From a virus, in IMG/VR virus record IMGVR_UViG_3300021959_000204, positions 1 to 32,798 of that record: DNA of 32,798 bases. One strand, 5' to 3'. Positions within the stretch are counted from its first letter, which is position 1, and every line of letters starts with the position of its first letter. Position numbers and translations under genes: made by a program. Below are positions 1,860-8,287 of this stretch, piece by piece. The notes under the pieces are model-generated. The model was not told the DNA's origin. It saw nothing but the letters and a program-made list of their open reading frames with translations, and searched no databases.

Positions 1860-3612
1860 ATGGGCTGATAAATACAGACGTTTATCAGCGGAATCATCCG
1901 CAGAAGCTGGCTTATGGAATACTAATCGCGCCGCATACCAGCGCGGAATGATGCAAGCTATATCAGACCCTGCTATTGAAAATGTAGTTTTTATGACAGG
2001 GGCGCAAGTTGGCAAAACAGAAATTATAAATAATGCTATAGGTTATTTCATACACAACCAGCCGTCGCCAATGTTGGTTGTTCAACCGACTTTAGAAATG
2101 AGTAAAATGTGGTCTAATGATAGGCTTGCGCCTATGCTTAGGGACACGCCAGTTTTAAAGAACGCGGTTAAAGATGCGCGGTCTAGGGATTCAGGTAATA
2201 CACTTTATCAGAAATCATTTAGCGGCGGTTATATAGCTATTGTTGGCGCAAATAGCGCGGCTGGGCTGGCTTCAAGACCAGTGCGGTGCGTTTTTTTAGA
2301 TGAGGTTGATAGATACCCGCATTCGGCTGGTTCAGAGGGCGACCCGATAGATTTGGCAAGGGCTAGGACTAAAACATTTAGCTATAATAGAAAAATCGTG
2401 ATGGTATCAACGCCAACTAATAAAGGCGCGTCCAGAATTGAAGCCGCTTATGAAGAATCTGACAAGCGTATGTATTATGTTCCATGCCCAGATTGCGACC
2501 ATAAACAGACCTTGAAATGGTCGCAAGTTAAGTGGGAACAAGATAAACCTGAAACCGCACATTATATTTGCGAAGAATGTGGCAGTGTATGGGATGAAGC
2601 AAAGCGATTAAGGGCTATAAGATTCGGCGAATGGCAAGCGACCGCCCCTTATACTGGCACTGCGGGGTTTCATCTTAATGGCATTTATAGCGTTTGGGTT
2701 GGTTTAGACAGGGCGGCTAAAGAATTTCTAGCCGCAAAAAAATTGCCCGATACATTGCGCGTTTTTATAAATACCTATTTAGCTGAATCTTATGAGCAAG
2801 AGGGCGAACGCGTGGATGATTATGCGGTTGCAGAACGCGCTGAAGCGTTTGGCGATAGGTTAGATAGCCGCATCCAGATAATAACCGCTGGAATTGATAC
2901 GCAAGACGATAGGCTGGCTATTGAGGTTGTAGGACATGGTCGGGACGAAGAAACGTGGAGTTTAAGTTTTAAAGAACTTTACGGCGACCCATCGACGCCC
3001 CAATTATGGCAAGATTTAGACAACGAACTAAAAGCAACTTACATAACCGAAGATAATCGCAAGCTAGACATCCGCGCCGCTTGCATAGATTCGGGCGGTC
3101 ACTATACGCAAGCCGTTTATAATTTCGTTAGAAGCCGTGAAGGTCGCCGCATTTTTGCTATAAAAGGTATGGCTGGGGAAAGCCGCCCGATTGTTTCCAG
3201 ACCCAGCCGAAACAACATCGGCAAGATAAGGTTGTTCACTTTGGGGGTTGACAACATCAAGGAATTGATTTTTTCGCGATTAAAGATTATAATTGAAGGG
3301 GCTGGATATTGTCATTTTCCAAATGACAGACCAGATGAATATTTTAAACAGCTTGCGGCATCAGAAAAGATTGTCACAAAGTTTCATAAAGGATTCCCAC
3401 GGCGGGAATTTGTAAAAACAAGAACGCGGAATGAAGCATTAGACTGCCGCGTTTACGCTATAGGGGCTTTAGCTATTTTGAATTTGAATCTAAATGCTTT
3501 AGCAGACCGCACTGAAAAACGTAAAGCTGAACAATCAGCCGATGAACAACCGTCTGTAAATAGACAATATCAACAAAGAAGAACTAGCAATTTTGTGAAT
3601 GGGTGGCGTTAA
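1828..3612 (+). CDS. Terminase large subunit (GpA family)
   Basis: 594-residue packaging motor that uses ATP to translocate DNA and cuts concatemers at cos. It opens with the family signature PPTDLKLDEWADKYRRLS. Walker A is GAQVGKTE at 58-65, Walker B is FLDEVDRYP at 156-164, and a coupling motif VSTPTNKG follows. A zinc-ribbon-like insert has CPDC at 220-223 and CEEC at 248-251. The C-terminal nuclease has GIDTQDD, ACIDSGG and NEALDCRVYA. The reading frame is open further upstream to an ATG at 1729, but family N termini start near PPxDL, so the ATG at 1828 was chosen. The stop overlaps the next start as TAATG. Confidence 0.95.
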   Translation: MKPPTDLKLDEWADKYRRLSAESSAEAGLWNTNRAAYQRGMMQAISDPAIENVVFMTGAQVGKTEIINNAIGYFIHNQPSPMLVVQPTLEMSKMWSNDRLAPMLRDTPVLKNAVKDARSRDSGNTLYQKSFSGGYIAIVGANSAAGLASRPVRCVFLDEVDRYPHSAGSEGDPIDLARARTKTFSYNRKIVMVSTPTNKGASRIEAAYEESDKRMYYVPCPDCDHKQTLKWSQVKWEQDKPETAHYICEECGSVWDEAKRLRAIRFGEWQATAPYTGTAGFHLNGIYSVWVGLDRAAKEFLAAKKLPDTLRVFINTYLAESYEQEGERVDDYAVAERAEAFGDRLDSRIQIITAGIDTQDDRLAIEVVGHGRDEETWSLSFKELYGDPSTPQLWQDLDNELKATYITEDNRKLDIRAACIDSGGHYTQAVYNFVRSREGRRIFAIKGMAGESRPIVSRPSRNNIGKIRLFTLGVDNIKELIFSRLKIIIEGAGYCHFPNDRPDEYFKQLAASEKIVTKFHKGFPRREFVKTRTRNEALDCRVYAIGALAILNLNLNALADRTEKRKAEQSADEQPSVNRQYQQRRTSNFVNGWR

Positions 3613-4199: not shown

Positions 4200-5677
4200 T
4201 GGGGTTTTTCGATTTTCTAAAGAAACAAGAGCCAAAAGTCGCTTCAAAGCGCAACTATGCGGCGGCTAGGGGTGGCAGATTATTCGGTGATTTTCTAGGG
4301 GCAGACAATTCAGCGGATGGCGAATTAAGATTTAATCTAGAAACATTGCGCAACAGGTCACGAGAATTAGTCCGCGATAATGAATTTGCGCGTCGTTATA
4401 TGACGCTTTTAAAAACAAATGTGGTTGGCGATACTGGCTTTCATTTGCAAGTCAAGGCGCGAAATGAGGATGGCAAGCTAGACGCGTCTGGGAATACTAT
4501 AATTGAAAATGCATGGAAACGCTGGGGTCGTTTAGGTTCGCCAACAGTTGACGGCAAAATGACATGGTATGACTGCCAGCGGTACGCGATAGAGGCGTTA
4601 GCGCGTGACGGTGAATGCTTTATTAAGTTAATTCAAAATTCTAGATATCGCGATGGGTTTGCTATACAGTTTTTAGAAGCTGACATGATTGATGAAAAAA
4701 AGAACGACGTTTTAGACAATGGCAATCAAATTCGCATGGGCATTGAAATGGATAAGGCTCATAAACCGATTGCCTATTGGGTTTTAACAGCGCATCCGAA
4801 CGATAAATATTATTTACAGCATCAAGAGCGCAAACATCAGAGAGTTCCCGCGTCTGAAATAATTCATCTTTATATGCCAAATCGGATGCATCAATCGCGT
4901 GGCGAACCATTCATGGTTTCAGCTATGTCTGCGATGAAAATGTTGGGCGCGTATCGTGAAGCTGAAGTTATTGCGGCGCGGTTAGGCGCAAGCCAGATGG
5001 GTATGATAACAACGCCAAGCGGCGATGATTATATGGGTGATGGGCTGGAAAACGATTTTACGCCAGTTATAAATGTAGAACCAGCCGCTATGCATCAGTT
5101 GCCAGCGGGTTATGATTTCAAAATGTTTAGCCCTGAACATCCTAATACTGGCTATGCGGAGTTTGAATCTGCAATGCTACGCGGTATTTCATCGGGGTTA
5201 GGCGTATCTTATGCCAGCTTATCTAATGATTTATCCAGCGTAAATTATTCTAGTATTCGCCAAGGCGCGCTAGATGAGCGCGATGGATATCGCGCATTAC
5301 ATCAATTTATGATTCAGCATTTTTGCGAACCTATTTTTAGACATTGGCTAGAATCAGCCATGGATTTCGGTGGCATACCATTGCCAGCATCAAAGTTTGA
5401 TAAGTTTAGCGACAATTCCAACTTTAGGGGTCGGGGATGGAATTGGGTAGACCCACTAAAAGAGATTAATGCGGCAGTGGTCGGGTTGAATAATGGGATA
5501 ATGTCAATGCAAGATGTGGCTGGACATTATGGTCGCGACGTCGAAGAAACATTTAGCGCGATTAACCGCGATAAAGAACTTGCAGAACAGTTTGGTTTAT
5601 CAATGGCGTTTGAGCCGTTTGGCACTAAATTGCCTGTTGAAGCTGATATAGCTGGGGGCGATGATGGCGACGTATAA
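4199..5677 (+). CDS. Portal protein (lambda gpB family)
   Basis: 492 residues, typical for lambda-like portals. The portal is the dodecameric ring at the capsid vertex through which DNA enters and to which connectors bind. Characteristic segments are the N-terminal RGGRLFGDF, LRNRSRELVRDNEFARRY and the NVVGDTGFHLQ strand, then LARDGECFIKLI, QFLEADMID, PNDKYYLQHQ, IIHLYMPNRMHQSRGEPF and the SSGLGVSYASLSNDLSSVNYSSIRQG loop. Start and stop overlap neighbours (TAATG at the start, 17 nt into the capsid gene), which suggests coupled translation. Confidence 0.93.
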   Translation: MGFFDFLKKQEPKVASKRNYAAARGGRLFGDFLGADNSADGELRFNLETLRNRSRELVRDNEFARRYMTLLKTNVVGDTGFHLQVKARNEDGKLDASGNTIIENAWKRWGRLGSPTVDGKMTWYDCQRYAIEALARDGECFIKLIQNSRYRDGFAIQFLEADMIDEKKNDVLDNGNQIRMGIEMDKAHKPIAYWVLTAHPNDKYYLQHQERKHQRVPASEIIHLYMPNRMHQSRGEPFMVSAMSAMKMLGAYREAEVIAARLGASQMGMITTPSGDDYMGDGLENDFTPVINVEPAAMHQLPAGYDFKMFSPEHPNTGYAEFESAMLRGISSGLGVSYASLSNDLSSVNYSSIRQGALDERDGYRALHQFMIQHFCEPIFRHWLESAMDFGGIPLPASKFDKFSDNSNFRGRGWNWVDPLKEINAAVVGLNNGIMSMQDVAGHYGRDVEETFSAINRDKELAEQFGLSMAFEPFGTKLPVEADIAGGDDGDV

Positions 5678-8042
5678 AGGCGAAGATATAGACCTAAAGC
5701 CAACTGAAGCTATGGCAAATGAAGCGCAACGCGGTTTAGATTGGCGCAAGGAACATGGTCGCGGCGGCACTGAAGTGGGTGTCGCTAGGGCTAGACAGTT
5801 AGTTAATAGACAAGAATTGTCTGCTGATACTGTTCGGCGAATGCATAGTTATTTTAGCCGCCATGAAGTTGATAAACAGGGCGAAGGGTTTACACCAGAT
5901 GAAGATGGATATCCATCGGCGGGGCGTATAGCATGGGCGTTATGGGGCGGCGATGCTGGACAAAGCTGGGCGCGGAACAAAGACCGCCAGCTAGACAACA
6001 TTGACGAAGAACGCGGAATATCAGATAATGTCGAAACACAAAAAATAGGTGATGAAATGGAAAAGCGGCATATTGTGGATGTGCAAGAATTAGAAGATGC
6101 TTATGTCATCACTTTTGCAAAGCCACGCGAACAAGAATTAGAAACATCTGGAAACGATGAAATGGAATCTAGACCATATCACGATGAAGAAGAAGAACGC
6201 ATTAGCCGCGCAGATTTAACTTTACGCGCTATGGAGTTAGAAGAAAAAACAATAGACACAGAAAAAAGAACTGTATTGGTTGGAGTTTCATCAGAAGCAC
6301 CAGTTGAACGCAGTTTTGGGCTAGAGGTCATTGACCATTCTCGCGAAAATATGAACCTTGATTTTTTAAATTCAGGTCGTGCGCCATTATTGCTAAATCA
6401 CGACATGGAACAGCAAATCGGGGTGGTTGAATCTGTTGAACTGGATGAAAATGCTCGTAGACTACGCGCTAGGGTTCGCTTTGGAAAAGGTGAGCGCGCT
6501 TCAGAAGTGTTTGACGATGTTGCCGATGGCATTCGGCAAAATATCAGCGTTGGTTATCGCATAGATAGCCGCGTTGAGCGTGAAAACGACCCAGAAGATT
6601 ATTATCGGGTTGCTACTACGCCAATGGAAATTAGTTTTGTTCCACTTCCAGCAGACCAGTCCAGTCAGGTTGGGGTCGGACGTTCGCTTTCCGAAACTTT
6701 AATATCAACTCCAATCGAAAGGAAATCTGAAATGTCAGAAAATATCGATTTAGAGGCAGTTAAAGCGGAAGCCGCCAAGACTGCCCAGCGCAATGCAAAG
6801 GACATAATGACCCTTGCGCGCAAACATAACAAGGCTGATTTAGGTGAAGATGCACTTGGTCGCGGATTGTCAATAGATGATTTTCGCGGTGAATTGCTAG
6901 AATCAATCGGCAACCAGCCACTAGAAACACCAGCGAGTGTTGTAGACGCACCAGTTAAAGAACAGCGCGCTTACAGCCTAGCTAAAATGTTGAGGGCGCA
7001 AGTGACGCAAGATTGGTCTAGCGCAAAGCTAGAACAGGAAATGCATCAGGAAATTGTGAAAAACACTGGAAAAGAGGGTCGCGGAATTTACGTGCCAGAT
7101 TTTGCATGGGGTTCACGTTCTGGTGTTATGACAACAGCCGCTACTGGCGCAATTTCTGGTGAAAATGTAACAGATGCTTTTGTTCCAACAATTCAGCGTG
7201 GCGACTTGTTCATTGAGGCGTTAAGAGCAAGGCAAATCATGTCAGGTCTAGGCGTTACTTATATGTCAGGTTTAACAAATCGCGTCAGAATACCAAAGTT
7301 TTCTGCTGGTGCAACTGCCGCATTTGTTGAAGAAGCTGGCGACGTTTCAGACCAATCACAAACAGATGCATCTGTAACTTTACAGCCTAGAACACTAGGC
7401 GCAAAAGCTACAATGTCACGTTTGTTGATGCTTGAATCAGTGCCATCAATTGAACAGGTTGTTCAAAATGACTTGCTACGTTCACTTGCTGATGCGATTG
7501 AATATTATGCAATTCAGGGTTCAGGTTCTTCAGGTCAGCCAACAGGCTTGCTAAACACAAGCAACATTGGAAACGTGGATATTTCTGCTGGAACTGATGT
7601 AGCGGCATTAACATGGGCAGATATTACTGATATAGTTAAAACCGTTGAAGATGCAAATGGCATAACTAATCAAGCCGCGCTTGGTTGGTTGTCTAACCCG
7701 AAGGTAAAAGCAAAACTAGCTAATACTGTAAAGGTTGCAACAACCGATTCAATCATGTTGTTAAACGACCCGTGGAATAACATTTATGGGTATCGTGCAG
7801 AGTTCACAACAAATGTTCCATCAAACCTAGATTCAGGTGATGGCGGTTCTGATGCGTCAGCATTAATATTTGGTGATTTCTCACAGTTGATGGTTGGTCT
7901 ATTTGGTGCGCCATCAATTCTTGTTGACCCTTACACAGCATCTGCATCTGGTGACGTTACAATTAATGTTCATCAAGAGGTCGATGTTGCTGTCAGAAAT
8001 GCGGAATCATTCGCAATCACTGACGAAGTTTCAACAGCTTAA
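5661..8042 (+). CDS. Fused N-terminal module / HK97-type prohead protease / major capsid protein
   Basis: 793 residues in three parts. Residues 1-110 are a small module often attached to phage head proteins (ARARQLVNRQELSADTVRRMHSYF; YPSAGRIAWALWGGDAG). Residues about 190-345 match the S78 prohead protease: RTVLVGVSSEAPVERSFG, LLLNHD with its His near 247, and the Ser of QNISVGY near 296. Residues 358-793 are the HK97-fold capsid subunit with a helical delta region (358-470), FVPTIQRGD, RIPKFSAGATAAFVEEAG and the C-terminal DVAVRNAESFAI. In-frame ATGs with good Shine-Dalgarno sequences at 6732 (capsid alone, 436 residues) and 6057 (protease onward) suggest the modules are also made separately. 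The first two codons are ATG ATG, so 5664 is an equal start. Confidence 0.9.
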   Translation: MMATYKGEDIDLKPTEAMANEAQRGLDWRKEHGRGGTEVGVARARQLVNRQELSADTVRRMHSYFSRHEVDKQGEGFTPDEDGYPSAGRIAWALWGGDAGQSWARNKDRQLDNIDEERGISDNVETQKIGDEMEKRHIVDVQELEDAYVITFAKPREQELETSGNDEMESRPYHDEEEERISRADLTLRAMELEEKTIDTEKRTVLVGVSSEAPVERSFGLEVIDHSRENMNLDFLNSGRAPLLLNHDMEQQIGVVESVELDENARRLRARVRFGKGERASEVFDDVADGIRQNISVGYRIDSRVERENDPEDYYRVATTPMEISFVPLPADQSSQVGVGRSLSETLISTPIERKSEMSENIDLEAVKAEAAKTAQRNAKDIMTLARKHNKADLGEDALGRGLSIDDFRGELLESIGNQPLETPASVVDAPVKEQRAYSLAKMLRAQVTQDWSSAKLEQEMHQEIVKNTGKEGRGIYVPDFAWGSRSGVMTTAATGAISGENVTDAFVPTIQRGDLFIEALRARQIMSGLGVTYMSGLTNRVRIPKFSAGATAAFVEEAGDVSDQSQTDASVTLQPRTLGAKATMSRLLMLESVPSIEQVVQNDLLRSLADAIEYYAIQGSGSSGQPTGLLNTSNIGNVDISAGTDVAALTWADITDIVKTVEDANGITNQAALGWLSNPKVKAKLANTVKVATTDSIMLLNDPWNNIYGYRAEFTTNVPSNLDSGDGGSDASALIFGDFSQLMVGLFGAPSILVDPYTASASGDVTINVHQEVDVAVRNAESFAITDEVSTA
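6717..6734 (+). promoter_or_regulatory. Internal ribosome-binding site and start for free major capsid protein
   Basis: GAAAGGA at 6717-6723 lies 8 nt before an in-frame ATG at 6732 (Met358 of the fusion, MSENIDLEAVKAEA). This is exactly where the capsid delta domain begins, and the match is better than at the fusion's own start. It would yield capsid subunits in excess over protease without a processing step. A second possible internal start is ATG 6057, behind AGGTGA at 6047-6052. Confidence 0.5.
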
Positions 8043-8095: not shown

Positions 8096-8287
8096 ATGAA
8101 AATACAAATCTTAGAGAAATGTTACACTGGTACTGCTGGCAATATGTTTGCTGGCGAACAGCATGATGTTAATAATGAAATTGCAGAAAAATTAATCCAG
8201 CGCGGATATGCTACAAAAGTCAAAGCAGAATCTAAAAAGAAATCTGACCGCGCTATAAAAGAATTAGTAACACCAGAAAGTGAATAA
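8096..8287 (+). CDS. Small head-region protein, unknown function
   Basis: 63 residues behind a good Shine-Dalgarno (AAGGAAATGAAATG). The sequence MKIQILEKCYTGTAGNMFAGEQHDV..AEKLIQRGYAT follows a pattern (short beta strands, a G-x-x-G turn, then a helix ending in LI.RG.A) found in short proteins beside many phage capsid genes. The last 20 residues are Lys/Glu-rich. By position it corresponds to lambda FI, but there is no clear sequence reason to equate them. It is the first gene after the palindrome at 8058. Confidence 0.6.
   Translation: MKIQILEKCYTGTAGNMFAGEQHDVNNEIAEKLIQRGYATKVKAESKKKSDRAIKELVTPESE

Follow-up and report, generated by a model that had tools for sequence, protein, structure and literature searches.

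How a phage can obtain some 415 coat subunits and only a small number of proteases from one fused gene has previously been left open or ascribed to polyprotein cleavage. This question is raised by a head gene within a 32.8-kb viral record of a marine phage (32,798 nucleotides, analysed over its whole length and referred to here as the window) that is related to the CRP-822-type roseophages (PMC12629253). An N-terminal domain (module 1), a prohead protease and a major capsid protein are joined in this gene in one frame, and a preliminary description had proposed that internal starts at the module borders give rise to nested products.

Organization of the fusion gene

The ORF at positions 5661-8042 of the window comprises 793 codons and is uninterrupted. 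The gene start, placed at 5661 in the preliminary description, was corrected to the ATG at 5664, which is more likely to be the start of the full-length product because its anti-Shine-Dalgarno pairing is -8.4, compared with -2.6 at 5661. The portal gene is located upstream, and its end, with the stop codon at 5675-5677, overlaps the start of the fusion gene. A fusion of a ParB N-terminal domain with an N6/N4 DNA methylase was found immediately upstream of the terminase genes (62-1330), and a small ORF right behind the capsid gene (8096-8287) matched phrog_2616, a family of unknown function. Rfam and tRNA scans of the 32.8-kb window gave no matches.

Table 1. Features of the fusion gene, with positions in the window
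Feature	Position	Strand	Basis
Full-length fusion gene (module 1, protease, capsid)	5664..8042	+	start scoring, ORF check
Module 1, mainly helical phage-specific domain, codons 2-119	5664..6017	+	phrog_2859 match
Disordered linker 1, codons 120-137 (model residues 119-136)	6018..6071	+	AlphaFold low confidence
Shine-Dalgarno AGGTGA, internal start 1	6047-6052	+	sequence, pairing score
In-frame ATG, codon 133; predicted start of 661-aa protease-capsid product	6057..6059	+	
Prohead protease, Peptidase_S78, residues 239-343	6375..6689	+	Pfam
Disordered linker 2 joining protease to capsid, codons 344-365 (model residues 343-364)	6690..6755	+	AlphaFold low confidence
Shine-Dalgarno GAAAGGA, internal start 2	6717-6723	+	sequence, pairing score
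In-frame ATG, codon 358; predicted start of 436-aa capsid-only product	6732..6734	+	
Putative helical delta (scaffold-like) segment, model helices 364-415	6753..6908	+	AlphaFold model
HK97-type major capsid domain, Phage_capsid, residues 515-786	7203..8018	+	Pfam

The protease part belonged to Peptidase S78 (PF04586; 36.2 bits, cut-off 21), and its His at codon 247 and Ser at codon 296 were invariant in alignments. The capsid part was assigned to the HK97-type profiles PF05065 (107.8 bits, cut-off 24.2) and TIGR01554 (79.4 bits, cut-off 27.5), its closest solved relative being the capsid of R4C (8gta). Residues 189-790 matched PHROG 617, a family of major head proteins with a protease part, over profile positions 11-624 of 626 (E = 2e-106). 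Two further assignments were rejected: the score was 44 bits for the HK97 prohead protease equivalog TIGR01543, with a curated cut-off of 59, and 139 bits for the prohead protease/major capsid fusion family NF045541, with a cut-off of 525 and a match limited to residues 198-446.

An AlphaFold model of the fusion protein (mean pLDDT 73; pTM 0.44, so that the orientation of the domains is unreliable) showed module 1 and, between it and the protease, a small beta-hairpin unit; the protease was followed by a helical delta-like segment and this by the capsid fold. The three-module description given earlier is therefore a simplification. The helices at residues 364-415 probably represent the delta domain, as judged by their position. 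The first 106 residues had phrog_2859 (function unknown) as their sole profile match. Module 1 showed no Pfam match and no relative among solved structures by sequence or by fold, and an assignment of its function from structure was dropped for this reason. Its viral matches were other phage proteins, portal and protease fusions included. Module 1 is a widespread, mainly helical phage domain that also occurs in fusions with portal proteins, prohead proteases, ParB-like proteins and further proteins of phages.

Internal start sites

Every in-frame ATG, GTG and TTG of the ORF (n = 45) was scored for anti-Shine-Dalgarno pairing. The three strongest were those at 6732 (-9.8), 5664 (-8.4) and 6057 (-7.5), and codons 133 and 358 each lay inside a low-confidence linker of the AlphaFold model. 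Coordinates, frame, linker position and Shine-Dalgarno (SD) ranking all agreed with the earlier proposal that the ATGs at 6057 and 6732 are in frame, carry good ribosome-binding sites and lie at module borders. Because of their place among the top three in pairing and their position at module borders, the internal sites were confirmed as genuine and as exceeding chance expectation. Local RNA structure at the window's own 6732 site was merely average.

Conservation of the capsid-border start

A first scan covered 40 viral relatives, and 34 sequences (the window copy and 33 relatives) spanned the region. All 34 showed a 6732-type ATG preceded by an SD, despite indels and differences in linker length and residues; within this first set the SD was encoded by residues as different as ERKSE, IKGDDN, STGEIK, LEDV/KEDV and VKEKP. 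A later profile search added viral and bacterial-genome loci. A protease or capsid part was recognisable in 212 loci; 207 of these had both in one open frame, and the remaining five were contig fragments. The 207 include CRP-823, in which module 1 is cut off from the rest by an indel upstream of the protease. The dereplicated set consisted of 115 fusions with a median pairwise identity of 38%, and an ATG 5-65 codons from the protease end was present in 115/115, a count that, like the other conservation counts, comes from relatives not fully independent of each other. The preliminary description had regarded loss of the internal sites in relatives as evidence against its proposal; for the capsid-border ATG, no such loss was observed in either the 34 spanning sequences or the 115 fusions.

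An SD of ≤ -6 kcal/mol preceded the border ATG in 74% of the fusions (n = 115), compared with 8.5% of the remaining in-frame ATGs (n = 1537) and 12% of equal-size random windows (Mann-Whitney p ~ 1e-52). RNA structure was weaker at the border starts (median -7.7 vs -14.9 kcal/mol; p ~ 8e-41), and the border linker is charged and flexible, which alone favours purine-rich, unstructured RNA; resampling of synonymous codons with the protein fixed, which corrects for this in part, gave a mean pairing of -4.8, compared with -7.4 observed (p ~ 9e-19). On the strength of three controls, a chance origin of the border start was rejected. Sliding windows along the gene revealed a single peak, located at the border (71%), with values of mostly 2-17% elsewhere, and the median SD was ≤ -6 in 23 of the 27 clusters made at 50% identity. 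The same threshold was reached by 59% of 88 annotated starts from phages of this kind; the border starts match or exceed them in strength. The residue following the border ATG was Ser, Pro or Thr in 71%, compared with 18% elsewhere. A weak border SD was seen in about 12% of lineages, the cyanophages S-CBS1/3 and S-LBS1 among them. Comparison across relatives showed the capsid-border start to be maintained by selection.

The putative protease start and inserted modules

An ATG or GTG with an SD of ≤ -7 was found before the protease in 67% of 60 dereplicated relatives carrying module 1, compared with 10% of control windows; at a threshold of ≤ -9, the values in this region were 50% and 3.5%. In some close relatives (L005, L021 and L041), GTG replaces ATG at the codon-133-type start, with a strong SD. 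The position of this start shifts between relatives, and in some it is weak. The expectation that the 6057 site is kept in relatives was borne out by the enrichment of the SD, but its place, codon and strength proved irregular.

This variation favours an explanation in which the capsid start at 6732 alone is functional and 6057 is unused, so that two products are made and not three. The distant fusions VP882, RcCronus, R4C and ep3 lack module 1 and have their start close to the protease, so the site at 6057 may be a remnant of the gene start used before module 1 was acquired. Two products are a genuine possibility, if an unlikely one, since this explanation is opposed by the strong enrichment at the ≤ -7 threshold, by the exchange of ATG and GTG at a fixed place and by the strength of 6057, which ranks third among the sites of the window ORF. 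The simplest history would be that an older protease-capsid gene gained module 1 and other modules in frame while its old start was retained.

Small swappable modules were observed between module 1 and the protease in varied combinations (L004, L013, L022, L029, L017, L042 and L045). They comprised DUF5824, a PYPNEH module, Hva1_TUDOR and a cupredoxin-like stretch, and were mostly located upstream of the codon-133-type start. Similar small modules are also present in other phage proteins. The CRP-823 sequence (L043) contains one extra T compared with CRP-831, at about position 3090 of the locus and upstream of the codon-133-type start, which splits the fusion gene. CRP-823 was set aside as a natural split gene, since the phage was not purified (PMC12629253) and the indel may be an error.

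Proposed expression of the fusion gene

Nested products are very probably made from the one frame, mostly as capsid alone, with a minority of protease-capsid that co-assembles. We infer the use of the internal starts by ribosomes, the product ratios, the co-assembly and the cleavage as follows. Ribosomes starting at 5664 would produce the full-length protein with module 1, protease and capsid, those probably starting at 6057 the protease-capsid protein, and those starting at 6732 the capsid with its delta segment. SD-like sites within genes do not serve as starts in every case. The product of 6732, the strongest of the starts, would furnish most of the shell, and the longer products, sharing the capsid domain, would co-assemble as a minority, so that the protease and module 1 would enter the procapsid with them. 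The protease would then release itself there and cut the delta segments.

The shell of R4C consists of 415 copies of the capsid protein (PMC10276861). In its solved chain (8gta), residues 362-629 of the fused ORF are modelled and no others, which fits the nested model and equally fits polyprotein cleavage. According to the latter explanation, the full-length protein alone is made, the protease cuts the linker, and the internal ATG and its SD are incidental. Proteins of the PAJU2 type have been described as such autocleaved polyproteins (PMC8306868), and the mature R4C capsid is without the N-terminal 361 residues of the ORF, as the nested model likewise predicts. Polyprotein cleavage leaves unexplained, however, the border ATG in 115/115 fusions, the SD above the synonymous null, the weak RNA structure and the start-like second residues. 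Packing is a further difficulty, because an additional N-terminal stretch of about 40 kDa on each of 415 copies would occupy about two thirds of the interior of a T=7 procapsid (our own estimate, from general knowledge); we estimate the extra protein inside a shell of full-length chains alone at about 16 MDa, which seems too much.

PAJU2 itself also has the same border site. The strongest in-frame SD start of its fusion (L215:2032-4035) is the ATG at codon 197, at the protease-capsid border, and a border SD start was kept in 89% of 45 dereplicated PAJU2 relatives. Exclusive synthesis of a true polyprotein is, on this evidence, improbable. That the starts are functionless relics, left over from a fusion of protease and capsid genes that used to be separate, is more improbable still: their border position and N-termini such as MSE, MPE and MTD do resemble former gene starts, but all 207 loci holding both parts have one open frame, at a median identity of 38% in the dereplicated set, and over such divergence a neutral SD would decay, whereas the SD persists even where the residues that it encodes differ.

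A scan of 12 dereplicated relatives of the ClpP-type Fels-1 fusion gave no distinct border peak, and a rule for all protease-capsid fusions was unsupported for this type. A moderate, conserved GAGGA...ATG was observed in Fels-1 (L297:20750-22870) at codon 220, after the protease. It is conceivable, albeit doubtful, that the protease-capsid 'polyproteins' of tailed phages are nested genes generally, and that their variable N-terminal modules, confined to the rare longest product, are addressed procapsid cargo: a small number of capsid subunits would take them in, and the adjoining protease would release them, for a role in assembly or for delivery with the DNA.

Comparison with known systems

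The capsid, protease and module 1 of the window are closest to those of the CRP-822-type roseophages (CRP-831, CRP-821/822/823, CRP-406 and CRP-811), which have the same fusion and, in the region compared, the same gene order around it; capsid identity with five of these phages was 63-66%. In most of them, module 1 and the protease are separated by additional modules that are absent from the window, and their fusion has been published as 'major capsid protein' and nothing more. R4C, RcCronus, VP882 and phiHAP-1 have a homologous protease-capsid fusion with a border ATG and SD, but are without module 1 and internal start 1. The 'capsid polyprotein' of PAJU2 likewise combines an S78 protease and an HK97-type capsid with a strong internal border start, but belongs to another lineage, with another gene order and without module 1.

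The protease-capsid fusion as such is already known (PAJU2; NF045540/NF045541). The papers searched contained no prior description of an internal capsid start in such fusions. The internal start, conserved in two lineages of these fusions, offers a simple, directly testable answer to the question of stoichiometry, and it amends how a large class of head genes in phages and prophages is annotated. It would also represent a natural means of tethering an enzyme, and possibly further modules, to a minority of shell subunits.

In lambda C/Nu3 and Mu I/Z, the protease is part of the long product of one frame, an internal start yields a more abundant C-terminal product, and a shared assembly domain brings few protease copies into the procapsid. 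The conserved in-frame internal start at a domain border, characteristic of the lambda C/Nu3 type, was also found in the fusion family of the window. The nested product of lambda and Mu is the scaffold, with a separate coat gene, whereas that of the window is predicted to be the coat protein, delta segment included. The nested capsid start is a new version of the lambda/Mu nested protease/scaffold design.
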